Shown here: positions 1 through 12,193 of the stretch, one piece after another
Layout: each line of letters begins with the position of its first letter
Numbering within the stretch: the stretch's first letter is position 1
Assembly (NCBI GenBank): GCA_029883145.1
Contig: JAOUJR010000021.1
Location: 1-12,193 of the forward strand
Direction of reading: 5' to 3'
Length of the DNA stretch: 12,193 nt
Source of the DNA: Nitrospirota bacterium
GTDB lineage: Bacteria > Nitrospirota > Thermodesulfovibrionia > Thermodesulfovibrionales > SM23-35
The notes under the pieces: model-generated
The model's database searches: none
Seen by the model: only the letters and a program-made list of their open reading frames with translations
What the model was told of the DNA's origin: nothing
Translations under genes and position numbers: made by a program

Positions 1-800
1 AAGCCACTGCCCAAGATATCTTCACCAAGAAGACCTGCCTCTGTAGCCTGGTCTATTGCTTTCTGCAGACGTTCAACAGCAATGGTGTAATCAGTTCTCA
101 CGTAAATATATCCCTTGGTTGCACCTATAGCTCTCGCACCGATTATCATTCCCTCAATGATTTCATGTGGATCTGATTCCATTAAAGCCCTATCCCCATC
201 CTTAATGGCAGCAGAACCATTACACAACATGTATTTCTGTCCTGAATCCATCTTTGCACATACTTCCCATTTCACACCTACTGGAAAACCAGCACCGCCT
301 CTTCCCCTAATGCCTGAATCTTTTACAACTTTAATTATTTCTTCAGGGGTCATCTCCGTCAGTGCCTTTGCCGCAGCCGAATAACCGTCTCTTGCAATGT
401 ATTCTTCAATCTTATCCGGATCAATGAGTCCTTTATTCCTTAATACCCTCAGAACCTGGTGTTTAAAAAATGGTATTTCACTCATGCGCGGAATAGCCAA
501 TCTTTCCACAGGTTCTTTATACATAAATTTCTCAACAGGCCTTCCTTTTAGGAAATGCTCTTCTACTAAAAAGGGAACATCTTCAATCTTTATATTTTCA
601 TAGAAGATTTCTTCTGGATACACAGTAATAATTGGCCCACGGGTACAGACACCGGCGCACCCTGCAAGAACTACCGTTACTTCGTCTTCGAGTTTCCACT
701 TTTTCAATTCTTCCTGAAGGGCGTTCTTCACTTTAAGAGACTTGGCTCCAACACAGCCACTTCCTGCGCATACCATTAGGTTTGTACGAGATTTTTTCAT
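1..800 (-). CDS. HndC/NuoF-like flavoprotein subunit, 5' part only (runs off left edge); NADH-loop motif missing
   Basis: The first 266 residues are present and the gene continues past base 1. ATG at 800-798 follows an AGAGGAG ribosome site. Residues 1-95 form a thioredoxin-like [2Fe-2S] ferredoxin domain with C11, C16, C48 and C52, the N-terminal extension that separates HndC/HydB proteins from plain NuoF. From about residue 140 the NuoF core starts. The FMN glycine loop GRGGAGF (166-172) is present, as are KW (177-178) and GYIYVR (230-235). Where NuoF has NADEG(D/E)PG, this protein reads CNGSAAIKDGDR (193-204), so the acidic residues that contact NADH are absent and the loop is two residues shorter. 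Family knowledge: HndC or HydB carries FMN and iron-sulfur clusters in cytoplasmic bifurcating hydrogenases or formate dehydrogenases. Inference: this copy probably passes electrons without normal NAD(H) binding. It is last in the visible operon; a catalytic subunit may follow outside the window. The C-terminal clusters cannot be seen. Confidence 0.9.
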   Translation of the reverse strand, partial: MKKSRTNLMVCAGSGCVGAKSLKVKNALQEELKKWKLEDEVTVVLAGCAGVCTRGPIITVYPEEIFYENIKIEDVPFLVEEHFLKGRPVEKFMYKEPVERLAIPRMSEIPFFKHQVLRVLRNKGLIDPDKIEEYIARDGYSAAAKALTEMTPEEIIKVVKDSGIRGRGGAGFPVGVKWEVCAKMDSGQKYMLCNGSAAIKDGDRALMESDPHEIIEGMIIGARAIGATKGYIYVRTDYTIAVERLQKAIDQATEAGLLGEDILGSG

Positions 801-873
801 GCCTACTCTCCTCTATAGAAATTCAAATAAAGAAATTCCATAATTATTAATCTTGTCCTATTCATTTTGAATT

Positions 874-1257
874 TTAGTATGTTGTCTCACTTCCGAGTAC
901 CAGAGCATATTTTTCTACAGGTTTACCACCCATGATGTGCTCTTTAAATATTTCTTTTACCTTCGTCGCATTCAGGTCACAGTATTTGATGGGTGGCTCG
1001 TTGACTATCTCCACAGTAATCATAGGTTCACGTGAACAGAGCCCTGCACAGCCTGAAGTCGTCACGATAACATCTTCCACATTCGCATTAGCAATTTCAT
1101 CCATTACAGTGGTCATGACATCCCTTGCCCCTGCGGCGATTCCGCATGTCCCCATATGTACTGTAACCTTTGCCCTATGGCCTCCTTGCCTGAGTGTAAA
1201 GGCTGCTTGTTGTTTTTCTTTAATTTTCTTTAAATCATCTATTGTCAATCTAGCCAT
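874..1257 (-). CDS. hndB: HndB-like (2Fe-2S) thioredoxin-fold ferredoxin subunit
   Basis: This 127-residue protein matches the small HndB-type subunit of NADP-reducing hydrogenases and related complexes. It resembles the ferredoxin domain at the start of the next gene (HMGTCGIAAGA near residues 34-44, then GCAGLC at 69-74). The cysteines are C38, C70, C74 and C93, enough for one [2Fe-2S] cluster, although the spacing of the first and last differs from NuoE. The C-terminal pattern of an EH-x-x-GGKPVEKY stretch is shared with the HndC-like neighbour (EHFLKGRPVEKF), pointing to common ancestry. The start at 1257 follows a near-perfect AAGGAGGT ribosome site. It lies 15 bp after the receiver-NuoE gene and 73 bp before the HndC-like gene, so it is co-transcribed. 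The likely role is an electron-relay subunit in the cytoplasmic complex; the real partner enzyme is not visible. Confidence 0.88.
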   Translation of the reverse strand: MARLTIDDLKKIKEKQQAAFTLRQGGHRAKVTVHMGTCGIAAGARDVMTTVMDEIANANVEDVIVTTSGCAGLCSREPMITVEIVNEPPIKYCDLNATKVKEIFKEHIMGGKPVEKYALVLGSETTY

Positions 1258-1272
1258 TTTCTTACCTCCTTA

Positions 1273-2163
1273 TTAGGTTGTTTCTTTACTTACTGGTCTG
1301 TATTCGTCAAGAATTTGCGCTACTTTCTTTGGTTCTAAAGTACCATGTGTATCTTGGTCTATAACCATGACAGGTGCAAGACCACACGCACCGAGGCAGC
1401 GTACAGACTCCATAGAAAATCTCTTGTCATCAGTTATTCCACCCATTTCTATCTTTAACTCTTCTTTGAGCTTGTTTACTACTGCCTCAATCCCCTTTAC
1501 ATAGCAGGCAGTTCCAAGACAGACCTTTACAATATGCTCTCCCCTCGGTTTCATCGAGAAGAAGGAATAGAAAGAAACAATACTGTGTACATCCGCTGTA
1601 GATACATTCAGTCCTCTTGCTATTCTTTTCTGTATTATGGGAGGAAGATAACCAACGATTTCCTGAGCTCGCTGAAGGACTGGTATTGTATTGCCGGGTT
1701 TACCTTTATAGTCTTTAATAACCCTGTCCAATTCACCAATCATCGACGGCGGAAACTCTTCCTTAGGTATCTCTTCTGCCAGCACTTTACCTTTCATCCA
1801 ATCAAATGCCCTGTGTGTAACATCGAGCAGTACAGCCGGAGTAAAGGGCTTCGGCACATAGTCAATGATCCCCAGTTCAAGAGCATCCTTAATTGTCTCC
1901 TGTGACGGATAACCAGTAATGACTACGATCCCGGTTTCCGGTCTTGATTTTCTTATCCATCTCATCAGTGTGATACCATCTACCTCAGGCATCTTCAGGT
2001 CTGTCAAGACAAGATTATAGTTTTTCTGTTCCATCATGAGTATGGCTTCTCTCCCGCCACTCGCACCCTCAACATCATAACCTTCAGCACCAAGAATTCT
2101 TTTCGTACTCCTGATTACTATAGGCTCATCGTCAACTACCAGTATTTTAATATTGTCAGCCAT
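1273..2163 (-). CDS. Response-regulator receiver fused to NuoE/HndA-type [2Fe-2S] subunit
   Basis: This is a 296-residue two-domain protein. Residues 1-120 are a CheY-type receiver: the acidic pair D11-D12, phospho-acceptor D55 (LTDLKMP), T83 (ITGY) and K105 (PKPF) are all present. A linker of about 20 residues leads to a complete NuoE/HndA domain (about 140-290) with C215, C220, C256 and C260 in the C-x4-C ... C-x3-C order that ligates the N1a-type [2Fe-2S] cluster. NuoE is normally about 150-170 residues with no receiver. I chose ATG at 2163 rather than the TTG six bases upstream because AGGAGGG lies 7 bases before the ATG and only 1 base before the TTG. It is followed by HndB-like and HndC-like genes, the usual hndABC order, so it takes the HndA position. 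Inference: phosphorylation of D55 could gate electron flow through this cluster. There is no DNA-binding domain. Confidence 0.95.
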   Translation of the reverse strand: MADNIKILVVDDEPIVIRSTKRILGAEGYDVEGASGGREAILMMEQKNYNLVLTDLKMPEVDGITLMRWIRKSRPETGIVVITGYPSQETIKDALELGIIDYVPKPFTPAVLLDVTHRAFDWMKGKVLAEEIPKEEFPPSMIGELDRVIKDYKGKPGNTIPVLQRAQEIVGYLPPIIQKRIARGLNVSTADVHSIVSFYSFFSMKPRGEHIVKVCLGTACYVKGIEAVVNKLKEELKIEMGGITDDKRFSMESVRCLGACGLAPVMVIDQDTHGTLEPKKVAQILDEYRPVSKETT

Positions 2164-2203
2164 CAGCAATCCCTCCTTTTGTTCTTTATATCACAAAATT
2201 TAT

Positions 2204-3655
2204 CTAAATCGCTTTCGCTAAATTACTCACGTCCCAGTATTTCCATTTGAGATATTCATTAGTTGCCCTTGCTGCCTTTCTTCCTGCGCCCATCGCCAGG
2301 ATAACTGTTGCAGCACCTGTAACAATATCTCCGCCTGCAAAGACACCCCGTTTCGAGGTCATGCCTGTCGCTTCTTCAGCGATAATATAACCCCTCTTGT
2401 TGAGTTTTAGATCAGTCGTTGTTTTCGTTAAAAGCGGGTTTGCCTTTGTCCCGAGCGCAGGGATTGCAATATCAATCTCCATCTGGAATTCACTTCCTTT
2501 TATTACAACTGGTTTTCTCCTGCCAGACTCATCAGGTTCTCCCAATTCCATCTTTACACATTCAACCGCACAGACATTCCCCTTACCATCGTCAATATAC
2601 CTCGTTGGATTGGTGAGAAGTAAGAATTCTATGCCCTCCTCATGCGCATGGTGGACTTCCGCCTTTCTTGCGGGCATTTCAACTTCGGAACGTCTGTAGA
2701 TGAGATATACCTTTTCTGCACCAAGTCTCATTGCTATCCTTGCAGAATCCATTGCAACATTTCCACCACCAACTACTGCGACTCTTTTTCCTTTTTTTAT
2801 CGGTGTGTCATAATTTGGGAAAAGATATGACTTCATGAGATTTGACCTTGTTAAAAATTCATTTGCTGAGTACACACCATTAAGATTCTCCCCTGGTATT
2901 CCCATGAACATGGGTAACCCAGCACCTATACAAATAAAACAGGCATCGTATCCATATTCATTAAATAATTCATCAATAGTAAAAAGTTTTCCGATCACTG
3001 CATTCACGACGAGCTCAACTCCCAGCTTTTTAATGTAGTCAACTTCCCGCGCAACGATTTGCTTTGGAAGTCTGAACTCTGGTATTCCATAAATCAATAC
3101 CCCTCCTGCTTTATGCAGTGCTTCAAAGAGGGTAACCTGATGCCCTGACATTGCTAAATCAGCTGCACACGTTAACCCGCCTGGTCCCGAACCTATTACC
3201 GCTATTTTTCTCCCTGTTGGTTTCGGTTTCTCAGGGATCATCACCTCACCTTTTTCAGCCTCATAATCAGCAACAAACCTTTCAAGGTTACCTATTGCTA
3301 CAGGCTCTCCTTTCTTTCCCACAATGCATCCCGATTCACATTGAACCTCTTGAGGACATACCCTCCCGCATACAGCAGGCAATGCATTTGTCTCCTTCAC
3401 TTTATAGGCAGCTTCTAAGAATTTTCCTTCTTTCACAAGCTTTAAAAATCCAGGAATATCTACTTCTACCGGGCAATAGTCAACACAGGTTGGTCTTTTG
3501 CATGATAAACATCTTGTTGCTTCTTCAACTGCTTCTTCAGGAGAATAGCCATGGGGAACCTCATTGAAATTTTTAATCCTCTCAAGAGGCGGTTGTTCCC
3601 TCATTTTTACTTTAATCTTTTTTTTCTGTTCTTTCTTCTCCTCTTGCTCTTCCAT
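2204..3655 (-). CDS. nfnB: NfnB-like NADPH:ferredoxin oxidoreductase / GltD-family flavoprotein
   Basis: This 483-residue protein belongs to the family of the glutamate synthase small subunit and NfnB/SudA. After a Lys/Glu-rich tail (1-18) come eight cysteines for two [4Fe-4S] clusters: C49, C52, C57, C61, then C96, C100, C106, C110. An FAD Rossmann motif GSGPGG follows at 155-160, then an NADP(H) Rossmann motif VVGGGNVAMDSAR at 294-306, and the C-terminal FAD motif GVFAGGDIVTGAATV at 437-451. Known role: NfnB holds the bifurcating FAD and two [4Fe-4S] clusters, binds NADPH and exchanges electrons with ferredoxin. The adjacent nfnA-like gene (22 bp gap) supports Nfn rather than GltD, and no glutamate synthase large subunit is visible. 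It starts at ATG 3655 with GGAGG 8 bases upstream. Sulfide dehydrogenase (SudAB) activity is an alternative that sequence alone cannot exclude. Confidence 0.92.
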   Translation of the reverse strand: MEEQEEKKEQKKKIKVKMREQPPLERIKNFNEVPHGYSPEEAVEEATRCLSCKRPTCVDYCPVEVDIPGFLKLVKEGKFLEAAYKVKETNALPAVCGRVCPQEVQCESGCIVGKKGEPVAIGNLERFVADYEAEKGEVMIPEKPKPTGRKIAVIGSGPGGLTCAADLAMSGHQVTLFEALHKAGGVLIYGIPEFRLPKQIVAREVDYIKKLGVELVVNAVIGKLFTIDELFNEYGYDACFICIGAGLPMFMGIPGENLNGVYSANEFLTRSNLMKSYLFPNYDTPIKKGKRVAVVGGGNVAMDSARIAMRLGAEKVYLIYRRSEVEMPARKAEVHHAHEEGIEFLLLTNPTRYIDDGKGNVCAVECVKMELGEPDESGRRKPVVIKGSEFQMEIDIAIPALGTKANPLLTKTTTDLKLNKRGYIIAEEATGMTSKRGVFAGGDIVTGAATVILAMGAGRKAARATNEYLKWKYWDVSNLAKAI

Positions 3656-3677
3656 TTATTTAACCTCCATCTTTCTC

Positions 3678-4565
3678 TCACATCTTTCCGCTATACATAT
3701 CCATTGCGACCTTCTCCTCAACAAGATACATCTGCAGTCTCTTCATGAGCAGATCAAAATCAACCTTGTGACCATCAAACTCCGGACCATCGACACAGGC
3801 AAACTTTGTTTCTCCTCCCACTTCTACTCTGCATGCGCCACACATCCCTGTCCCGTCCACCATAATTGAATTCAGGCTCACTATCGTTTTTACATTGAAC
3901 TTTTCAGTTGTTTTACATACGAATTTCATCATAATGGGAGGTCCGATAGCAATTACCAAATTCACACTGGGATCTTGCACTGCTTCACGGTCTTCGAAAG
4001 ACGGAACATGTTTTTTAGTTGCCTTCATCTGATCTCCCTTAAGAATTTCTTCCAGTGGTATAGTGACAACTCCCTTTCTGCCATAAGAGCCATCGTCTGT
4101 GGTGACAATGAGTTCATCTGATACCTTACGCATCTTGTCTTCCCAGAAAAGGAGGTCCTTTGACCTCGCACCAATAATTGAGATGATTTTGTTGCCTGCC
4201 TCTTTTAATGCCTTTGTAATCGGATATACAGGCGCAATCCCAACCCCACCCCCCACACAGACAACCTTTCCAAAATTTTCTATATGTGAAGGATTCCCCA
4301 GCGGACCAATCACATCGGACAGATAATCGCCTTCATTTAATGTGCCGAGGTGATATGTTGTCTTTCCAACTTTCTGAAAAACAGAAGTGATCGTTCCTTT
4401 GTCTCTATCAAAATCAGCGATAGTTAATGGAATACGCTCTCCTTCCTCGTGAATTTTAAGGATGAAAAAATTACCCGGCTTCGCCTTCTTTGCGATATGT
4501 TTTGCGTCAATCTCGAACAAGGTTATCACTTCTGAGAGCTCTTCCTTCTTTAAAATCTTAAACAT
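3678..4565 (-). CDS. nfnA: NfnA-like ferredoxin-NAD(P) reductase subunit (FAD, [2Fe-2S])
   Basis: This 295-residue protein has the ferredoxin-reductase plan of NfnA/SudB and dihydroorotate dehydrogenase electron-transfer subunits. The FAD-binding RIPLTIAD lies at 44-51, the nucleotide-binding GGGVGIAP at 105-112, and the second half of the NAD domain at about 202-212 (VNLVIAIGPPI). The C-terminal [2Fe-2S] site shows D237, C242, C245 and C257 in DGTGMCGACR ... FACVDGPEFDG. An aspartate as fourth ligand is the NfnA signature, recalled from the known Nfn structures. A charged stretch at about 177-200 lies between the two halves of the nucleotide domain and looks like a modest insertion. ATG at 4565 is preceded by GGGGGGAG. 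It sits directly before nfnB in the same operon. Role: NAD(H) site of the cytoplasmic transhydrogenase, coupling NADH and ferredoxin to NADPH. SudB is the alternative name. Confidence 0.92.
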   Translation of the reverse strand: MFKILKKEELSEVITLFEIDAKHIAKKAKPGNFFILKIHEEGERIPLTIADFDRDKGTITSVFQKVGKTTYHLGTLNEGDYLSDVIGPLGNPSHIENFGKVVCVGGGVGIAPVYPITKALKEAGNKIISIIGARSKDLLFWEDKMRKVSDELIVTTDDGSYGRKGVVTIPLEEILKGDQMKATKKHVPSFEDREAVQDPSVNLVIAIGPPIMMKFVCKTTEKFNVKTIVSLNSIMVDGTGMCGACRVEVGGETKFACVDGPEFDGHKVDFDLLMKRLQMYLVEEKVAMDMYSGKM

Positions 4566-4675
4566 GATGTTCTCCCCCCAATCTTCAATTTTTCACCTAA
4601 TGGCCTCGCTCCCACCTCATATGCAATTTTTCCACACATTGTTCCTTTATTGCTCTCCATACTATTTATCAACTC

Positions 4676-5446
4676 CTACGTTAGTGTTACTGGTTGAACT
4701 CTCACTAACCACAGGAGCCAGCCCTCGCTCAGATTGTCACGTATGAGAGCACTCATCGCCTCATTTGCCTGATTGTTAATCTCTTTTACCACACCTGTCA
4801 TCGGAGAAACAATTTCGTGTGTATCACCTCTACTGCTTGATACCGTGGCAAAAGGAACCCCGGCGACAAGAGTAGTAAGCCCTTTCTGTATGTCAATATA
4901 CAAGAGTTCGGCTGCAAGGAGCCAATATCTCACATCACAACCAACTTCCCATATATTTTCTTTAATCGGCCTTGCCCATGTCCCTTCTTTATAAAATATC
5001 ACTGGATTTTCTTTATCTCTTAAAGGGGTTATATAGTTTCTGAACTCGTCTATAAATGACTGCCTCAGTATCCAGCCTTTCTTATCAAAAATCTTCTTTG
5101 CAACATTTATCATAAATTCAGGCGTGAATGGCTTTTCAATATATTCAAATACCCCAAGCTTGACTGATTCTTTCGCATCCTCCAAATTTGGGTACCCTGT
5201 AATGATAACCACATCTAACTTTGGCTGGATAATCTTTGTTTCTTTTATTACCGTCATTCCATCAACATCTGGAAGCCTTATATCAGATATTAGTAGATCA
5301 AATTCCTCGCTCCCGATTCTCTTTAGGGCCTCTTTCCCCTTGTCAACTGTTATGATAGTATAGCCCTCGGCTCCAAGCACCCTTTTAACGCTCAGGGTTA
5401 CAACAGGGTCATCATCTAATACTAATATCTTCCCCTTTTTTTCCAT
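4676..5446 (-). CDS. Response-regulator receiver fused to a lipoyl-lysine-lacking GcvH-like domain
   Basis: This is a 256-residue two-domain protein. Residues 1-120 are a receiver with D11-D12-D13, phospho-acceptor D55 (ISDIRLP), T83 and K105 (EKPF). Residues about 145-252 resemble glycine cleavage H protein: the hammerhead is recognisable in GVPFATV, IVSPMTGVVKEIN and the ending LSEGWLLWLVRVQP. In true H protein the first turn carries the lipoylated lysine in ESVKA. Here the aligned stretch is SSSRGDTHE (203-211), with Gly at the lysine position and no lysine in the turn, so standard lipoylation is not expected. No gcvT or gcvP is nearby. ATG at 5446 has GGAGG 6 bases upstream. It lies between a stand-alone receiver and nfnA, and probably has its own promoter near 5530-5558. 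A role as phosphorylation-dependent binding partner of the Nfn-Hnd complex is inference. Confidence 0.9.
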   Translation of the reverse strand: MEKKGKILVLDDDPVVTLSVKRVLGAEGYTIITVDKGKEALKRIGSEEFDLLISDIRLPDVDGMTVIKETKIIQPKLDVVIITGYPNLEDAKESVKLGVFEYIEKPFTPEFMINVAKKIFDKKGWILRQSFIDEFRNYITPLRDKENPVIFYKEGTWARPIKENIWEVGCDVRYWLLAAELLYIDIQKGLTTLVAGVPFATVSSSRGDTHEIVSPMTGVVKEINNQANEAMSALIRDNLSEGWLLWLVRVQPVTLT

Positions 5447-5529
5447 ACCTTGCCTCCAGTATAAAGTATTGTTATATACCGCCGAGTCATATGTGCCTTC
5501 ACCTCTCGGAATCTATTTAACTCATCGCT

Positions 5530-5558
5530 ATTTTAGAAAGACAGTATAAATTAATCAA
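5530..5558 (-). promoter_or_regulatory. Candidate internal sigma70-type promoter for the receiver-H-like/nfn/hnd part
   Basis: Reading leftward on the minus strand, TTGATT (5558-5553) and TAAAAT (5535-5530) are separated by exactly 17 bases. The expected start of transcription is near 5523, leaving a leader of about 77 bases before the ATG at 5446. The 136-bp gap holding it is the largest within the minus-strand operon. This would let nfn/hnd expression be set separately from the kinase. It is a consensus match only. Confidence 0.45.
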
Positions 5559-5570
5559 TTCATTTATACT
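5543..5570. repeat. Perfect 9-bp inverted repeat overlapping the internal promoter
   Basis: AGTATAAAT (5543-5551) and ATTTATACT (5562-5570) are exact reverse complements with a 10-base AT-rich centre. The repeat covers the -35 element and part of the spacer of the candidate promoter at 5530-5558. That geometry fits a repressor operator. Low complexity in an AT-rich spacer is the alternative. Confidence 0.5.
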
Positions 5571-5582
5571 ATAAACTCTATT

Positions 5583-5954
5583 CTAAACCTTCTGGCTAAT
5601 AGCCTTTTTTATTACTGACATAATACCATCGGGTGTAAAGGGCTTTTCAATATAATCGAATGCACCAAGCTTTATAGAAGAAACAGCCGAAGCAATGGCA
5701 CTATATCCTGTGATGATGATCACGACAACATCAGGCCATCTTTCCTTGATTTTTTTCAGGACTTCCATCCCGTCCATGTCAGGCATCTTGACGTCTATCA
5801 AGGCAACGTGGAACAATTCGTTTTCGAGCATCTTCAGCCCCTCTACTCCGCTTTTCGCGGTCTTTACATCATAACCCTCGGGAGTAAGAGCCCGATGGCA
5901 GCTCATTAACACTATATCTTCATCGTCTATGACTAAAATCTTTCCCTTACTCAT
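5583..5954 (-). CDS. Stand-alone CheY-like response-regulator receiver
   Basis: This 123-residue protein is a single receiver domain with no output domain. The acidic pocket D10-D11, phospho-acceptor D54 (LIDVKMP), a threonine in ITGY and a lysine in EKPF are all in place. I chose ATG at 5954 because GTGGAG ends 6 bases upstream; an in-frame GTG at 5966 lies inside that ribosome site and has none of its own. It begins 30 bp after the kinase stop codon and is the natural first phosphate acceptor of that kinase. Its closest visible relatives are the receivers of the two fusion proteins in the same operon; all three share the ITGY and KPFTP blocks, which suggests local duplication. Single-domain receivers act by protein contact or as phosphate sinks and shuttles. 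Which applies here is unknown. Confidence 0.93.
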   Translation of the reverse strand: MSKGKILVIDDEDIVLMSCHRALTPEGYDVKTAKSGVEGLKMLENELFHVALIDVKMPDMDGMEVLKKIKERWPDVVVIIITGYSAIASAVSSIKLGAFDYIEKPFTPDGIMSVIKKAISQKV

Positions 5955-5984
5955 GATGAACTCCACTTATATATTGTTGCTTAT

Positions 5985-7559
5985 TCATCTCTCATATAAA
6001 GGCAGCCTCACAAAGAAGCTTGAACCTTCTCCAACTGTGCTCTTTACAAAAATTTTACCTCCGTGTTCCTGCACAATTCCGTGGCTTACCGCAAGCCCAA
6101 GTCCTGTCCCCTTCCCAACAGGTTTTGTGGTAAAGAACGGCTCAAAGAGTTTTGCCATATTCTCTTGAGATATACCGTGACCTGTATCAGTAAATTCAAC
6201 TTCTGCAAAAGTCCTGTCATTTTCGGTAACCTTACGGGTATATACAGTTAATGTCCCTTTGCCTTCCATTGCATCTGCTGCATTGAGAATCATATTTAAG
6301 AAGACCTGCTGAAGTTGAGATGCATTAGCTTCAACAGGTGAAAGCGATTCATCGAGATTCTGTTCAATAGTGATATTGAAGAAGTCTGCCTTTCGCAATA
6401 CCATATTTAAAGAACTCTTCACAACATCATTTATATTCACTGGCCCTTTATCAACTGTGGTGGCTCTTGCAAAGCTCAGAAGTCCTTTAATAATATTTGA
6501 ACATCTATTTGCCTGTTCGATGACAACCTCGATGTCTTCTCTGTCTTCACTGCCCTCAGGGAATTTCTTGAGTAAAAGATGACCAAAAGTAACTATGCCT
6601 GTGAGAGGACTGTTTATCTCGTGGGCTACACCAGCAGCCATCCTTCCGAGGGATGCAAGCTTTGCAGAATGGATAAGTTGTGCATGAGCCTTACGAATCT
6701 CCTCGGTTTTTTCACCGACCTTTTTTTCGAGTGTGTTTCCCCACTCGACTAATTCTTTTTTTGCCTTTGAAAGGTCAGCGGTCATCGCATTGAATACCTC
6801 TGCAAGTTCCCCCATCTCATCCTTTGTGTCTATCTTTACATTATAATTAAGGTCACCTGAAGCAACGCGTTTCATCCCTTTGGAAAGTATATTCACAGGA
6901 GTATGGACAAATTTCCAGAGGATTATATAGAGGACAATTGAGATAATCAAGAAAAAACTCGCAATGTACGCTATGAGCACTAATCCCTGTTTTCTTATAC
7001 CTTTATCGAGATACGCGAGTGAGAGATCAGCCTCAACAAGCCCGAGAACCAATTGGTCCTTAGGATGGACATGGCATGCTGCACTGTAGCACACAGGCTC
7101 ATTATGTACAGGTTGTATAACATTAAGAACCCTGTACCCTTCTTTATCCCTGCTGATAGACCAGCTCTGTGTTGTTTTTGGTTTACTCACTCCTGCATGA
7201 CATGGTTTACAGACATATGAATCCAGACTGAGCACCGTTCCTATTTCTTCTTTACGAGCAGAATATGCAACTTTGCCTTTCGCGTCGAAGATATTGATTT
7301 TATTCACTCCTTTAGAAGAACCTATATCCTCAACGGTTCGCTGGATCAAATTCACATCATAATTCACCATACCAAAACGGGTGCTTTTCTTTATTTGCTC
7401 TGTAAAGGAGATACCGCTATCAACACTATGTTCAATAAGCTCTGCCTCACGATTGCGGTACATAAGATAACCGAGAATAATGCTTCCTATGACCATTAAG
7501 GCACTTATGGTTAGAATGAGTTTTCCGGTTAGGGAGTAGACAAATCTCTTTGCTTCCAT
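5985..7559 (-). CDS. Membrane sensor histidine kinase with periplasmic di-heme-c motifs
   Basis: This 524-residue protein has a membrane segment at about 13-33, a periplasmic domain of about 155 residues, a second membrane segment at about 191-216, a HAMP linker (217-270) and a coiled coil to about 295. HisKA follows with phospho-acceptor H313 (VAHEINSPL), then an HATPase domain with N426 (N box), DTGHG (458-462), FEPFFTTK (472-479) and GKGTGLGLA (482-490). The periplasmic part carries CKPCH (117-121), a canonical CxxCH heme c site, and CYSAACH (157-163), a CxxxxCH variant known in some multiheme cytochromes. Kinases of this layout occur in cytochrome-rich anaerobes; redox or gas sensing is inferred. 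Its partner is most likely the receiver 30 bp downstream, possibly also the two receiver fusions. The ribosome site before ATG 7559 is weak. No DNA-binding regulator is encoded with it. Confidence 0.95.
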   Translation of the reverse strand: MEAKRFVYSLTGKLILTISALMVIGSIILGYLMYRNREAELIEHSVDSGISFTEQIKKSTRFGMVNYDVNLIQRTVEDIGSSKGVNKINIFDAKGKVAYSARKEEIGTVLSLDSYVCKPCHAGVSKPKTTQSWSISRDKEGYRVLNVIQPVHNEPVCYSAACHVHPKDQLVLGLVEADLSLAYLDKGIRKQGLVLIAYIASFFLIISIVLYIILWKFVHTPVNILSKGMKRVASGDLNYNVKIDTKDEMGELAEVFNAMTADLSKAKKELVEWGNTLEKKVGEKTEEIRKAHAQLIHSAKLASLGRMAAGVAHEINSPLTGIVTFGHLLLKKFPEGSEDREDIEVVIEQANRCSNIIKGLLSFARATTVDKGPVNINDVVKSSLNMVLRKADFFNITIEQNLDESLSPVEANASQLQQVFLNMILNAADAMEGKGTLTVYTRKVTENDRTFAEVEFTDTGHGISQENMAKLFEPFFTTKPVGKGTGLGLAVSHGIVQEHGGKIFVKSTVGEGSSFFVRLPLYER

Positions 7560-7584
7560 CTTACTTTAAAGTTAAACGGGTTAT

Positions 7585-7612
7585 ATTATATCATCATTGT
7601 TCAATTATGCAA
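7585..7612 (-). promoter_or_regulatory. Candidate promoter of the kinase-receiver-nfn-hnd operon
   Basis: On the minus strand a perfect TATAAT occupies 7590-7585. TTGCAT at 7612-7607 gives a 16-base spacer. A better hexamer, TTGACT at 7617-7612, would need 21 bases. Transcription would begin near 7578, about 19 bases before the kinase ATG at 7559. The -35 assignment is uncertain. Confidence 0.45.
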
Positions 7613-7651
7613 GTCAAACTTATAACCGAGAAGTCACGAAGTTATTTTTTT

Positions 7652-7668
7652 ATTATATCTCATATAAT
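7652..7668. repeat. Short inverted repeat in the divergent control region
   Basis: ATTATAT (7652-7658), CTC, ATATAAT (7662-7668) form a perfect 7-bp inverted repeat between the two divergent promoters. It could be an operator shared by both units. The composition is nearly all A and T, so chance is quite possible. The rest of 7560-7775 is AT-rich with no gene recognised. Confidence 0.3.
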
Positions 7669-7735
7669 TTATGGAATAATAGTGAGGGGTTAAGGCTATT
7701 AAAATCCTATAGATTTAAAAATGTAAATTTTTTAC

Positions 7736-7764
7736 TTGACAACAATTGATATTTTGAGTATAAA
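7736..7764 (+). promoter_or_regulatory. Strong sigma70-like promoter of the nuo operon
   Basis: A perfect -35 TTGACA (7736-7741) and a -10 TATAAA (7759-7764) stand 17 bases apart. An A/T-rich stretch at about 7712-7735 upstream resembles an UP element. The predicted transcription start is about 7770-7772, only about 5 bases before the nuoA ATG at 7776. Confidence 0.75.
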
Positions 7765-7775
7765 CATATACTCGT

Positions 7776-8147
7776 ATGCCTGGAACTTATTTGCCATCAA
7801 ATTATTTACCGATTCTTATCTTTCTTATCATTGCGACGGCCTTCGGCCTGGGTGCTTTATTAATTGGAGAGATATTCAGGATGAAAAGGCCGTATTTCGA
7901 AAAGCTTATGCCCTATGAGTCGGGTATTACTCCTACTGGTGAGCCTCAATTCAGGTTTTCCATCAGGTTTTACATCATCGCGATGCTTTTCGTTGTATTC
8001 GATATTGAAGCTATTTTTATTTATCCATGGGCAATTGTTTTTGACAAGATCGGGATTTTTGCCTTTATTGAGATGGTCATTTTTATCGTTATACTTTTGA
8101 TTGGATATATCTACGCCTGGAAAAAAGAAGCTTTTAAATGGGATTAA
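7776..8147 (+). CDS. nuoA: NADH-quinone oxidoreductase (complex I) subunit A
   Basis: This 123-residue protein has three membrane helices (about 11-33, 60-82 and 90-116), as in NuoA/ND3. The family loop MPYESG ... RFSIRFYIIAMLFVVFDIEAIFIYPWA is present at about 45-88. Where many ND3/NuoA proteins have YECG, this one has YESG, so the cysteine used as a conformational marker in mitochondrial ND3 is a serine. The N-terminus (MPGTYLPSNYLPILIF) fits the family, which supports ATG 7776. No ribosome site precedes it, and upstream in-frame codons reach a stop at 7761 without a start. A TTG at 7791 is a weaker alternative. NuoA lies in the membrane arm next to the quinone site. It is first in the operon, 18 bp before nuoB. 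Confidence 0.96.
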   Translation: MPGTYLPSNYLPILIFLIIATAFGLGALLIGEIFRMKRPYFEKLMPYESGITPTGEPQFRFSIRFYIIAMLFVVFDIEAIFIYPWAIVFDKIGIFAFIEMVIFIVILLIGYIYAWKKEAFKWD

Positions 8148-8165
8148 GAGATAGCGAGGTAAGAG

Positions 8166-8687
8166 ATGTTAATAGACACATCAACAATCGGGCTCGTTGA
8201 GGTAGAAGAAGGAACAAAGGTACTTCCCCCGAACCTCATCATCACCTCTATAGACAAAGTGGTGAATTGGTCAAGGTTATCATCAATCTGGCCTGTTACA
8301 TTTGGACTCGCATGCTGTGCAATAGAAATGATGGCAGCTGGCGCAGCGCACTATGACTTTGACAGGTTCGGCATTATATTCAGAGGTTCACCAAGGCAAT
8401 CAGACTGCGTCATTATTGCTGGTACAGTGACAAAAAAGATGGCGCCTGTGGTAAGAAGAGTTTTCGATCAGATTCCCGAACCGCGATATGTTGTCGCAAT
8501 GGGAAGTTGTGCATGCTCAGGCGGGATATTTAGAACATACAATACAGTCCAAGGATGTGATACTTTTCTCCCTGTAGATGTGTTTGTTCCTGGTTGCCCC
8601 CCAAGGCCTGAAACTCTCATGGAAGGAATGATATTGCTTCAGGAAAAAATGAGAAAAGAACAAGCAAGATGGAGTATGTGGAGATGA
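8166..8687 (+). CDS. nuoB: Complex I subunit B, carries the N2 [4Fe-4S] cluster
   Basis: This 173-residue protein has the usual NuoB length. Cluster N2 ligands are all present: the adjacent pair C50-C51 in [10 protein letters not shown]115 in MGSC and C144 in PGCPPRP. The conserved block [16 protein letters not shown] (65-80) near the quinone pocket is also intact. N2 is the final electron donor to quinone at the junction of the peripheral and membrane arms. A GAGGT ribosome site precedes ATG 8166. The stop overlaps the start of nuoC, which indicates translational coupling. I see nothing unusual in it. Confidence 0.97.
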
Positions 8688-9256
8688 TAGTAGAAGTAAA
8701 CATGAAATTTCCCTATATGAAAATGGATCCATTAGCAATTGCTGAAAGGATTAAGGAAAAATTTCCTCTTGAGGTTGTCGATGTAGTAAGTTTCAGAGAC
8801 CAAGTCTCTGTCATAATAAAAAAAGAGAAAATTGTCGAGATCTGCAGGTTTCTCCATGATGACCCTGTATTAGATTTTGACCATCTCAGGGACCTCTGTG
8901 GTGTCGATTATCTTGGCAAAAAAGAACCAAGGTTCGAGGTCATATACCATTTATATTCAGTAAGACATCGTCATATGATACGTTTAAATGCTCAAGTTTC
9001 TGAAAGTGACCCGAAGATTGACTCTGTGACATCTTTGTGGGCTGGTGTCAACTGGCACGAAAGAGAATGTTTTGATATGTTTGGCATCAAATTCAAAGGG
9101 CATCCAGACCTGAGAAGGATTCTTTTACCAGAGGATTGGGAAGGCTATCCTTTAAGAAAAGACTACCCTCTCAAGGGGCCTGAAAAGGAATGGTCTGGTT
9201 TTGCTGAAGTTCTTGAAAAGGCAAAGAAGTACAGAGAATTTGATTGGGAAGGATAG
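8684..9256 (+). CDS. nuoC: Complex I subunit C (30 kDa)
   Basis: This 190-residue protein belongs to the 30-kDa subunit family. The signature [29 protein letters not shown] (about 124-152) is followed by [12 protein letters not shown]. NuoC is a separate gene, not fused to NuoD as in E. coli. I chose ATG 8684, which overlaps the nuoB stop as ATGA and has GGAG 9 bases upstream. ATG 8669 is open too, would add five residues and has no clear ribosome site. It is a peripheral-arm scaffold protein without cofactors. The stop lies one base before nuoD. Confidence 0.94.
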
Positions 9257-9257
9257 G

Positions 9258-10448
9258 ATGGAAAAGGTAGAAAAGATACTGGAAACAAGAGAGCTTAATG
9301 TCAATATGGGTCCTCAGCACCCTGCAACACATGGTGTCCTGAGGCTTGTCCTTGAGATAGACGGTGAAACAATTGTGAATGTCACACCCTATGTGGGATA
9401 TCTGCACAGGGGAATTGAGAAGCTTGGTGAAAGTCTGACTTATTTTCAGGGACTCCCCCTTACCGATAGATTGGACTATGTTTCTGCGATGTCAAACAAT
9501 ATAGGTTATGTCGTAGCAGTCGAGAGACTGTTTGGAATAGATCCCCCGGAGAGGGCAAAGTTTATAAGAACCATTGTGGGTGAGCTTTCACGTATATCAA
9601 ACCACCTCCTTTGGCTTGCAACCCACGCTCTGGACATTGGTGCAATGACAGTATTTTTATATTGCTTCAGAGAGAGGGAATGGATTCTTGACCTGTTTGA
9701 AATGATTTGTGGTGCAAGACTTACTGTAACATATCCGAGAGTTGGCGGTGTGAGAAATGATGTCTCTCAGGAGTTTCTTGACAGCCTGTACAAGTTTACA
9801 GAAGAATTTCCAACAAGGATACCGGAATATGAAACCCTTATAGACAAAAACAGGATATGGCTCAAGAGGACAGTAGGCATAGGCGTAATCTCAGCAGAAG
9901 AGGCAATAAACTGGGGACTTACAGGACCGACATTAAGGGGGTCCGGGGTCCAGTATGATATAAGAAAACATACTCCTTATGATGCATACGATAAAGTAGA
10001 ATTTGAAGTTCCTATCGGGACAAACTGCGATACATACGACAGATACCGTTGCAGGATGCATGAATTAAGGCAATCAAATAGAATTTTAAAACAATGTCTT
10101 GAAAAATTGCCGCCCGGCCCTGTGATGGCTGACACCCCTAAATTTACTCTTCCACCAAAGGATTTTATTTTAAAAGATATGGAACATCTTATCCATCAAT
10201 TTATTTTAATCACAAAGGGTCCTACTGTACCAGAAGGAGAAATCTATGTTGCAACTGAGGTGCCAAAGGGAGAACTCGGTTTCTATTTTGTAAGCGACGG
10301 AACAGGAAAGCCTTACAGGATGAGGATAAGGGCGCCTTCTTTTGTACACGCCTCTGTACTCTCGAGGTTGTGTGTGGGACACTTAGTTGCTGATGTGATT
10401 GCAAATATTGGCACAATTGATATAGTGCTTGGTGAATGTGACAGATAA
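9258..10448 (+). CDS. nuoD: Complex I subunit D (49 kDa, quinone site)
   Basis: This 396-residue protein is of the 49-kDa family related to [NiFe]-hydrogenase large subunits. The N-terminal [11 protein letters not shown] (16-26) holds the conserved histidine of the quinone pocket. [12 protein letters not shown] (45-56) and [15 protein letters not shown] (70-84) follow, and the protein ends DIVLGECDR, close to the usual DIVFGEVDR. The frame is open upstream to ATG 9201, but that would overlap nuoC by 56 bases; ATG 9258 has GGAAGG 5 bases before it and matches the family start. It forms the quinone-reduction chamber with NuoB. A 68-bp gap separates it from nuoE, the largest gap in the visible nuo operon. 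Confidence 0.96.
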
Positions 10449-10454
10449 ATAAGT

Positions 10455-10496
10455 GAGCTATCAGCTCTTGGTTCATTGATTAAGAACTGACAGATA
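10455..10496. repeat. Hairpin-forming spacer between nuoD and nuoE
   Basis: GAGCT (10455-10459), ATC, AGCTC (10463-10467) is a perfect small inverted repeat. A longer imperfect pairing also brings TATC-AGCTCTT (10459-10469) against AAGAACT (10482-10488) and GATA (10493-10496). No run of T follows directly, so it does not look like a terminator. It could tune the stability or the ratio of nuoE translation, or be a remnant of a dispersed intergenic repeat. Confidence 0.35.
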
Positions 10497-10516
10497 ACAC
10501 TATAGGATTTTTTAGA

Positions 10517-10981
10517 ATGTTTAGTGAAACAGCAATAAGAGAATTAGAGGAAACAAAGGCAAGATACCCTGATCGTAAGGCAGCACTTCTGCCTGCTCTT
10601 TACATTGCTCAGAAAGAATTTGGCTGGTTGGGTGCCGAGGCATATGAAGAGATTTCCGCTACTTTAGGCATTCCAAAAGCTGCTGTCAGGGGTGTTGGTA
10701 CTTTTTATTCAATGTTGAAACATAAACCTATGGGGAGGAACCTGATACGAATTTGTACAAATGTATCATGCATGATATTAGGAGCTGAAAAAGTGGTAGA
10801 CTTTTTAAGACGTAAGTTTGGCCTTGAAGACGGCTCTACGACTTCTGATAGCAGGTTCTCTCTCGTAATAATGGAGTGCATTGGTGCATGCGCTATAGGC
10901 CCTGCAATGCTTGTTAATGATGATTTATACGGGAATCTTACAGAAAAAACAATAGAAGAAATACTTTCTCAATATAGTTAG
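10517..10981 (+). CDS. nuoE: Complex I subunit E (24 kDa, [2Fe-2S] N1a)
   Basis: This 154-residue protein is an ordinary NuoE. The thioredoxin-like fold carries C80 and C85 (CTNVSC) and C121 and C125 (CIGAC), the N1a ligands. The helical N-terminus has LPALYIAQKEFGWL (25-38), typical of NuoE/HndA. It is similar in length and motif order to the C-terminal half of the receiver fusion at 1273-2163 but has no receiver, so the two serve different complexes. The ribosome site before ATG 10517 is poor (GGA about 9 bases upstream). NuoE pairs with NuoF in the NADH-oxidising tip of complex I. nuoF begins 24 bp downstream. Confidence 0.96.
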   Translation: MFSETAIRELEETKARYPDRKAALLPALYIAQKEFGWLGAEAYEEISATLGIPKAAVRGVGTFYSMLKHKPMGRNLIRICTNVSCMILGAEKVVDFLRRKFGLEDGSTTSDSRFSLVIMECIGACAIGPAMLVNDDLYGNLTEKTIEEILSQYS

Positions 10982-11005
10982 GGGTTAAAAGGTTAAGAGT
11001 TCAGA

Positions 11006-12193
11006 ATGGAAACGTTTCTTTTAAAAGACATAGATAATCCCAATTCCGCAAATATAAATTTTTATATCAATAACCAAGGTGGTTATCAGTCCCTCCAAAA
11101 AGCCCTTGCCATGTCACCTGCAGAGGTAATTGATATGGTAAGAAAAGCGAATCTCAGGGGTCGAGGAGGTGTCGGTTTTTCTGCAGGGATGAAATGGTAT
11201 TTTTGCAGCCTCAATAAAGAGGTTTCTCCGAAATATCTCATCGCGAATGCTGATGAAGGAGAGCCCGGGACATTTAAAGACAGGGCAATACTTGAAAAAA
11301 GACCACACTTATTAATTGAGGGCATGGTTATTGCTGGATATTCATTCGGTGCTGAATATGGATATATCTATCTTAGGGGAGAATACCCTAAGGCAAAAGA
11401 AATAGTGAATAAAGCGATACAAGAGGCTTACCATAAAGGTTATCTCGGCGACAACATCCTCGGCAAAGGTATAAAATTTCATATAACTGTTCATCAAGGT
11501 GCAGGAGCATATATATGTGGTGAAGCCTCCACACTCTTAGAATCCCTTGAGGGAAGAAGAGGCCATCCGAGAATACCATACTATCGTCTTGCGAATGTAG
11601 GAGCGTGGGGAAAGCCCACTATCGTCAATAACATTGAAACACTTTCAAATGTGCCTCTAATAATTAAAATAGGCCCGGAGGAATACACTCAAATAGGTCC
11701 TGCTAAATCACCTGGCCCTAAACTATATTCTATCAGCGGACATGTTAATAAACCTGGCCTTTATGAACTTCCTATGGGCACGTCCCTGAGAGAACTCATT
11801 TATAAACATGCAGGGGGGATAAGAGAGAACAGGAAACTCAAGGCAGTAATACCTGGCGGAATCTCAACACCTGTTTTACCTCCCGATAAGATAGACTGTG
11901 CTATGGATTTTGATTCTATGAGAAATGCAGGAAGTTGGTTAGGCAGCGGTGCTGTCATAGTTATGGATGATACTACCTGTATGGTGAAGATATTATGGAG
12001 GGCGTTAAAGTTTTTTGAACATGAGTCATGTGGGAAATGCGTGCCCTGCAGGGAAGGAACAGGTTGGATGCGGAATATTGTCGAGAGGATTGAAGACGGT
12101 AAGGGTACGGATGATGATATCGACCTTCTCATGGATATCGTCGATAACATCAAAGATAAGGCTTTCTGCCCTCTTGTGGATGGAGCAGTCACA
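11006..12193 (+). CDS. nuoF: Complex I subunit F (51 kDa, FMN/NADH), 5' part only; Glu183-equivalent is Ala
   Basis: 396 codons are present and the gene runs off the right edge. The FMN glycine loop RGRGGVGF lies at 51-58 and the NADH acidic loop NADEGEPGTFKDR at 81-93, with E86 matching E. coli E95. The flavin/NADH stretch YICGEASTLLESLEGRRG is at 169-186. The N3 [4Fe-4S] cysteines C342, C345 and C348 (CGKCVPC) and C388 (FCPL) are present, so only the C-terminal tail is missing. In E. coli the aligned motif is GEET, whose second glutamate is E183; here it is GEAS, with A174 in that place. E183 contacts the adenosine ribose of NADH, and changes there have been reported to admit NADPH (from memory). 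The gene has a plain NuoF start without the ferredoxin extension of the copy at 1-800. The ribosome site is weak (AAGAG). Confidence 0.96.
   Translation, partial: METFLLKDIDNPNSANINFYINNQGGYQSLQKALAMSPAEVIDMVRKANLRGRGGVGFSAGMKWYFCSLNKEVSPKYLIANADEGEPGTFKDRAILEKRPHLLIEGMVIAGYSFGAEYGYIYLRGEYPKAKEIVNKAIQEAYHKGYLGDNILGKGIKFHITVHQGAGAYICGEASTLLESLEGRRGHPRIPYYRLANVGAWGKPTIVNNIETLSNVPLIIKIGPEEYTQIGPAKSPGPKLYSISGHVNKPGLYELPMGTSLRELIYKHAGGIRENRKLKAVIPGGISTPVLPPDKIDCAMDFDSMRNAGSWLGSGAVIVMDDTTCMVKILWRALKFFEHESCGKCVPCREGTGWMRNIVERIEDGKGTDDDIDLLMDIVDNIKDKAFCPLVDGAVT

Follow-up and report, generated by a model that had tools for sequence, protein, structure and literature searches.

A receiver domain on the HndA-type subunit of a putative electron-bifurcating complex in Nitrospirota, and the two-component genes that accompany it

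The stretch of DNA analyzed here, which we call the window, is one entire contig of 12,193 nucleotides (JAOUJR010000021.1, positions 1-12193) from a Nitrospirota bacterium. An operon on its minus strand encodes, in order, a sensor histidine kinase, a lone receiver, a receiver fused to a GcvH-like domain, NfnA-like and NfnB-like proteins, a receiver fused to HndA, an HndB-like subunit and an HndC subunit cut by the contig end. All the genes named in a preliminary description of this DNA are present on that strand, with intergenic gaps of 15 to 136 bases. On balance, we favor the view that these genes specify a two-component system physically wired into an electron-bifurcating complex of the Bfu type (HydABC-like), with a kinase that addresses several receivers in or beside the complex. 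The complex would probably be tuned through its mobile [2Fe-2S] subunit.

Central to this view is the receiver-HndA fusion (1273-2169, minus strand; assigned from Pfam and alignment), the true start of which is likely the ATG at 2163. Its second half is a thioredoxin-like [2Fe-2S] protein of the HndA/NuoE/BfuC kind. The four cluster ligands, cysteines 217, 222, 258 and 262, were each kept in 62 of 62 sequences, and the best relatives of solved structure are 7t2r_C (the closest), 8a6t_C, 7q4v_C, 9bov_C and 8oh5_A, among them HydC, StnA and NfnC chains. A scan of the contigs of named genomes with the fusion protein gave 197 relatives at E ≤ 1e-3, some of them through the receiver alone; within the best 80, which were kept, 66 (L009-L074) are Nitrospirota-type loci of at least 56% identity, and from these the rows of the conservation alignments were picked by length and score. 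Neighbors were counted only where the flank suffices, save for NtrC-type genes, which were counted without a flank condition. HndC is found in 55/55 loci and a NuoG-like gene in 46/46, receiver-GcvH lies upstream of receiver-HndA in 58 of 62, and the kinase is nearby in 32 of 44. Of the 12 genomes in which the kinase is not nearby, ten encode it at full length in another place, one has a partial match and one, represented by 1.2 Mb of sequence, has none. The preliminary description had made Nfn a core partner and had proposed a search for its co-occurrence with the fusions and the kinase; the association holds for receiver-GcvH and the kinase and fails for NfnA and NfnB, which are adjacent in 5 of 51 loci, the constant partner being an HndABC/NuoG-like complex of the Bfu type. 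A second HndC gene occurs in 4 of 40 loci, all four of which also have NfnAB.

The association extends over the phylum. In an even sample of 395 genomes, 323 of them good, the receiver-HndA fusion (E ≤ 1e-60) was detected in 112 genomes, including 98 of the good ones, and in 69 of 169 genera; the match in G375 ends at residue 210, and some matches count one or two internal stops in open frames that are still about full length. The kinase (E ≤ 1e-75) was detected in 119 genomes, 106 with the fusion and 13 without it; six genomes have the fusion alone and 270 neither gene. The kinase is thus present in 106/112 fusion genomes versus 13/283 others (Fisher 5e-73, uncorrected for relatedness). The preliminary description had allowed that the gene association might be unique to this genome; the spread of the fusion through the phylum sample led us to reject uniqueness and, together with its presence on a closed chromosome, an origin by misassembly or chance as well. 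Within the window's own family (f1), 2 of 16 genomes hold both fusion and kinase and 14 hold neither. Ten genomes (G134, G150, G209, G237, G291, G305, G339, G369, G379 and G383) gave two receiver-HndA matches each, which suggests paralogous complexes.

All three receivers of the window score above the Pfam cut-off (86, 101 and 106 bits) and, as had been claimed for them, possess the full phosphorylation pocket. In receiver-HndA the pocket is kept in 61/62 rows, the remaining row having an N-terminal gap, and in receiver-GcvH in 58/58 (Thr in 57, with one gap); in the CheY/Spo0F-like lone receiver (5583-5966, minus strand; Pfam, 105.5 bits) the three Asp and the Lys stand in 37/37 rows and Thr or Ser in 36/37. 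The receivers look competent for phosphorylation. Within helix alpha-1, which faces the kinase, the three are 58, 42 and 33% identical to each other, whereas their identity to 26 further receivers encoded by the genome averages 13-20% and never exceeds 33%. In the rest of the domain, every pair includes a receiver that is more similar to one of those 26 than to its partner; the lone receiver, for example, is 51% identical to another receiver outside alpha-1 and only 8% within. An alpha-1 signature S-x-x-R-x-L (usually SC-x-R in relatives) is common to the receivers and to the NtrC-type regulator encoded in some of the loci. In a receiver tree of 80 rows, all sampled Nitrospirota operon receivers and the NtrC-type ones form one clade (99/79, just under the tool's starred level, from 120 columns and limited outgroups), and receiver-HndA and receiver-GcvH are sisters (99/90). 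The simplest reading would be that an NtrC-type regulator of the same kinase was duplicated and the copies then fused to HndA and to the GcvH-like domain.

The fusion appears to have arisen more than once. Among 235 searched genomes of the myxobacterial phylum, two carry a receiver-HndA fusion (L075:4080-7439 and L098:1-4054), in both cases with an NtrC-type regulator before it and HndC after it; L075 also has a kinase gene, and L098 begins inside the regulator gene. In the receiver tree the myxobacterial fusion falls outside the Nitrospirota operon-receiver clade, a placement that rests on two sequences, limited outgroups and 120 columns. A single origin shared with the myxobacterial fusion was rejected, since the tree forces at least two changes, and the latter fusion is apparently independent.

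From its sequence, the enzyme is best classed as Bfu-type, composed of HndA, HndB, HndC and a subunit resembling NuoG and formate dehydrogenase (FDH) that lacks the catalytic cysteine. HndC (HndC/NuoF/BfuB-like; 3-800, minus strand; Pfam and alignment) is cut in the window at residue 266. The operon continues on contig G000:C385 (locus L095) of the same genome with the rest of HndC, which retains the C-terminal ligands, a NuoG-like gene, a second, complete HndC and a second NuoG-like gene. The same gene order is found on a single contig in L009 (Thermodesulfovibrionales), whose NuoG-like gene is 92% identical to its C385 counterpart. The best match of HndC is the bifurcating NiFe-HydB 7t2r_B (705 bits). 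Among 59 HndC sequences of at least 560 residues from relatives, the 51K-type and C-terminal Fe-S ligand motifs are present in all 59 and the N-terminal ligand pair in 51, the others having an HndB-type N-terminus (7) or a gap (1, L056); the NADH/FMN loop CNGDEGDPGAF is intact in 58, as it is in the second HndC of C385 (L095:3487-5382). HndB (874-1257, minus strand), a small thioredoxin-like [2Fe-2S] subunit, has no Pfam match and hits NCBIfam ferredoxin families below cut-off. It is a separate gene in 54 of 61 loci and is fused to HndC in the other seven (L015, L039, L051, L052, L057, L060 and L069), where it sits at the front of HndC in place of the latter's own N-terminal [2Fe-2S] domain.

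The fourth subunit, judged from the L009 copy, matches FDH alpha and NuoG and the Pfam Molybdopterin and NuoG families, with no Fe-hydrogenase family among its Pfam matches. In 60 of 60 NuoG-like sequences of at least 650 residues, ten of which are canonical nuoG, glycine occupies the catalytic Cys/Sec position of FDH alpha, in a column set by alignment to 6tg9_A. FDH activity was therefore rejected: with glycine in place of the catalytic cysteine, the subunit could pass electrons but not oxidize formate in the usual way. By the Bfu scheme for HydABC-type bifurcating enzymes (Schut et al. 2022, PMC9304861), the present enzyme is a BfuABC complex, and its third substrate must enter through another protein. 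In the window lineage a candidate for this link is NfnB, because in the related Stn enzyme StnC joins GltD and NuoG domains (PMC10482914). The NfnB/GltA-like protein, an NADPH-FAD, Fe-S subunit, is encoded at 2204-3655 (NCBIfam TIGR01316, over cut-off), and the NfnA-like protein, a DHODB-type FAD/NAD and [2Fe-2S] subunit, at 3678-4565 (NCBIfam PRK06222.1, over cut-off), both on the minus strand. The complex is predicted to bifurcate electrons.

The membrane sensor histidine kinase (5985-7559, minus strand) was recognized from Pfam, motif conservation, an AlphaFold2 model and its co-occurrence with the fusion. It comprises an extracytoplasmic Cache/PAS-like sensor, HAMP, HisKA (with H313) and HATPase. 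The sensor bears two heme motifs, a CXXCH (CKPCH, residues 117-121) and a CX4CH (CYSAACH, residues 157-163); in an alignment of 38 rows the first is complete in 36, and the second and H313 are present in all. In the AlphaFold2 model (predicted local distance difference test, pLDDT, 78 overall and about 56-69 around the first motif), the strand arrangement is Cache/PAS-like, a fold assigned by eye, and the motifs lie in two loops, between predicted strands 2-3 and 4-5. Fold searches with whole kinase models gave only kinase parts among the matches listed and barely probed the heme sensor. The sensor region alone, as a protein query, found six relatives among 752 candidates in a search limited by shared exact words. 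PF11845 (sCache_heme) was absent from the Pfam matches at E ≤ 10 of three kinases, and the only Pfam match listed for the sensor, below cut-off at E 0.0029, was the chemoreceptor sensor family PF21563, which we take to be a Geobacter c-type-heme family. It is plausible that the sensor attaches heme. Nitric oxide (NO) may be the signal just as well as redox, because related heme-Cache domains fused to signaling parts are reported to act as NO sensors (preprint PMC12889525).

Part of the family has, in addition, what looks like a transcription arm. In 12 of 66 loci a gene encodes an NtrC-type regulator whose receiver belongs to the same clade, and in 12/12 of these the 120 bases preceding receiver-GcvH contain a sigma-54-like site; such a site was found in 2/34 loci with no NtrC-type gene nearby and in 3/7 in which the flank is too short to tell. 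After an initial inspection the consensus TGGCAC was replaced by TGGCAT, and several of the loci are near relatives; with the textbook consensus a site is found in 12/12 versus 5/41 of the remaining loci, about 2% of shuffled sequences also passing the threshold. Four loci were left out of both counts: L065 and L067, which had candidates in the first scan, L038, with one far upstream, and L071, which that scan did not list. The -24/-12 sites accompanied by an NtrC-type gene are those of L015, L022, L026, L031, L034, L042, L043, L054, L055, L057, L069, L072 and L165. In the last, a closed genome inspected afterwards, a single region contains the complete set, with TGGCAT-N5-TTGCA at -51. As for the two sites with no NtrC gene nearby, the genome of L048 carries a 74% identical NtrC elsewhere, beside its kinase, and L010 has beside its kinase a receiver gene cut by the contig end. 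These sites may well function as promoters. In the window genome (an 87%-complete assembly) no NtrC-type ortholog was found, the matches of 39-46% resembling the background of other genomes, and no sigma-54-like site precedes receiver-GcvH or the kinase in the window. The window represents a lineage without the transcription arm, and the preliminary claim that no DNA-binding output exists is correct for it and not for the system as a whole.

Receiver-GcvH (4676-5446, minus strand) was assigned from Pfam, alignment to GcvH and an AlphaFold2 model. The H-protein-like domain that had been described does have a lipoyl fold, with a Pfam match just over cut-off (E 2e-5), and all 13 PDB matches of this part are GcvH, weak but consistent (best E 0.0016). 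Fold searches with the whole model returned only receivers among the matches listed and barely probed this part. Relatives of the protein numbered 676, of which the best 120 were listed. No lysine occurs at aligned residue 206 or 207 in 58/58 sequences, and ten have one at 208; the alignment to GcvH has a one-residue gap at this site. The role of an ordinary lipoate carrier was rejected, as the lysine is missing from the lipoyl position; the protein would rather serve the same pathway as a scaffold or binding partner.

We propose the following scheme. The membrane kinase, through its c-type-heme Cache-like sensor, would read the extracytoplasmic redox state or a heme ligand and phosphorylate a set of related receivers: the free one and those attached to the lipoyl-fold (GcvH-like) protein and to HndA/BfuC. 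In StnABC and HydABC this last subunit, with its [2Fe-2S] cluster, is mobile, and its proposed swing passes electrons towards ferredoxin (PMC10482914). Phosphorylation of the fused receiver could alter the mobility or docking of BfuC, which would gate ferredoxin reduction, and this shift might set whether, and in which direction, electrons are exchanged between NAD(H), ferredoxin and a third partner, in the window lineage perhaps NADPH via NfnB. Some relatives would, in addition, turn the enzyme operon on through a fourth receiver that is carried by an NtrC-type sigma-54 activator. In this scheme one kinase would phosphorylate all the receivers, for which the alpha-1 helices and the receiver tree give indirect support, and phosphorylation would alter enzyme activity. 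Only tentatively would we go further and suppose that receiver phosphorylation works through the swinging [2Fe-2S] gate (BfuC/HydC/StnA), setting the bifurcation gear within seconds, and that Nitrospirota and the myxobacterial phylum each evolved this arrangement on their own.

Several observations weigh against this scheme. The HndC of the window (HndC1) has no intact NADH/FMN loop, and neither has the first HndC of L009 (8125-10032); because HndC1 has lost the loop, NADH is probably handled by HndC2 in this complex, or else HndC1 has another role. The 33% alpha-1 identity of the GcvH-fused and free receivers is no higher than that of the best background pair, and the alpha-1 comparison covered the receiver side only. 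Genomes and loci are related, so that the association values overstate the evidence; the six fusion genomes without a kinase fail at the threshold used, and some of the kinase matches counted are 34-41% identical and paralog-like. Finally, a best kinase match covering only the part behind the sensor was seen in 19 genomes of the phylum sample, 16 of them among the 112 with the fusion (some may be cut genes rather than lost sensors), and the closed genome of L165 encodes a kinase ortholog of 377 residues with no heme sensor domain (16310-17440). The signal would therefore not always be heme, and the input domain appears to have been exchanged or lost between lineages. Here the preliminary description, which spoke of a di-heme-motif kinase, needs qualification: both motifs exist, the second as CX4CH rather than CXXCH, in an input that is not universal. 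That description's own model, a dedicated heme-redox switch of Nfn/Hnd transhydrogenation acting only post-translationally, suits the window, in which NfnAB lies between the receivers, the kinase has heme motifs, and both a DNA-binding output and a sigma-54-like site are missing. It seems to us quite improbable for the family, given the rarity of adjacent NfnAB, the NtrC arm in 12/66 loci, the lineages in which the heme sensor is missing and the constancy of the Bfu-type complex as partner.

One could also envision a reverse flow of information, in which the fused receivers are phosphate sinks or docking sites that report enzyme level or redox state to the kinase, with feedback on the NtrC/sigma-54 arm and no change in enzyme activity. 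The sigma-54-like site that precedes the enzyme genes in every locus with an NtrC-type gene would fit such an arrangement, as would the clustering of all four receivers and their shared alpha-1 signature, expected if they compete for one kinase. However, no NtrC gene is nearby in 54/66 loci (flanks being incomplete in some, and the L048 genome having the gene elsewhere), and in the window genome, where no ortholog was found, the fusions nevertheless retain intact pockets; we consider reverse flow rather unlikely, if still deserving attention. Receiver domains are common dimerization modules, and those of the complex might simply dimerize or anchor a subunit, phosphorylation being incidental. 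A structural domain would be expected to lose its acid pocket, yet practically every row of the three receivers retains the three Asp, the Thr and the Lys, and two apparently independent fusions adjoin two-component genes, leaving little chance for a purely structural role. Another proposal is that the enzyme does not bifurcate and is a soluble NADH dehydrogenase or diaphorase that gives electrons to another partner under two-component control. The missing catalytic Cys/Sec of the NuoG-like subunit (0/60), a third substrate that is not assigned and the lost NADH loop of HndC1 are in its favor. Against it, the extra Fe-S ligands of HndC are retained at the C-terminus and, with few exceptions, at the N-terminus, and non-bifurcating homologs are without clusters B2-B5 (PMC9304861); we hold this proposal unlikely.

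Compared with known systems, the wired complex we favor combines familiar parts: receivers with non-DNA outputs and Bfu enzymes are already known, and it is their physical union that appears to be new. HndC corresponds to BfuB with its extra Fe-S ligands, HndA to BfuC and the NuoG-like subunit to BfuA; the BfuC described here differs in carrying a receiver, and the terms "response regulator", "receiver" and "CheY" do not occur in the main text of the Bfu paper (PMC9304861). StnABC, the Sporomusa-type Nfn, has NuoE, NuoF and NuoG-like parts as well, and its NfnB/GltD-like NADPH part has a likeness in the window lineage. There, one polypeptide joins GltD and NuoG and NfnA is absent (PMC10482914), whereas here NfnB and the NuoG-like protein are separate genes, NfnA is present, receivers have been added and, in 46 of the 51 loci with enough flank, NfnAB is missing from the neighborhood. 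The NADP-reducing hydrogenase HndABCD shares the HndA, HndB and HndC subunits, but in the present operon there is no [FeFe]-hydrogenase HndD and the fourth subunit is NuoG/FDH-like. In response regulators with enzyme outputs, such as CheB, PleD and RpfG, the receiver likewise controls a non-DNA-binding output, which here is a subunit of a multi-subunit redox enzyme. The sCache_heme and other c-type heme sensors (PMC12889525; PF21563) resemble the kinase in their Cache/PAS-like topology, covalent-heme motif and fused signaling parts; the present sensor differs in having two motifs, CXXCH and CX4CH, in two loops, and sCache_heme has its CXXCH between strands 3 and 4. The preliminary description knew of no system of this kind, and our search agrees with it: no receiver-fused or two-component-controlled enzyme of this sort was found among the listed titles and abstract beginnings of open-licence papers.

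The surroundings of the operon call for brief comment. Canonical nuoA-E (7776-10981, plus strand; Pfam), followed by the start of nuoF, diverge from it; nuo genes are nearby in 30 of 39 kinase-holding loci, and we regard them as neighbors of the system and not part of it. Before nuoA, at 7736-7764 of the plus strand, a TTGACA-N17-TATAAA read by eye is a sigma-70-type promoter candidate for the divergent operon. In relatives a block of small proteins accompanies the operon (L042:16096-18157, L023:6436-8963, L165:13893-16310). It encodes two HATPase proteins, one PHP protein and either one or two short ones, and a Pfam scan of one short protein gave no match; similar genes presumably stand in clostridial hydABC clusters. 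The PHP protein was not found in the window genome in a search run without a positive control.

To our knowledge, little is known of the regulation of enzymes that bifurcate electrons and thereby set the pools of NADH, NADPH and ferredoxin. In the present case the control domain sits on the subunit thought to gate bifurcation, so that a single protein would allow tests of the gating model and of direct phosphorylation-based control of energy metabolism. The interest of the system is high because the point of fusion is the proposed gate and because the fusion appears to have arisen twice. The group to which it belongs occurs widely among Nitrospirota that are mainly represented by metagenome assemblies, and groundwater or subsurface sites appear in many of the record titles. 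If our view is correct, these bacteria would possess a two-component system that has the electron path of an energy-conserving complex as its direct output.

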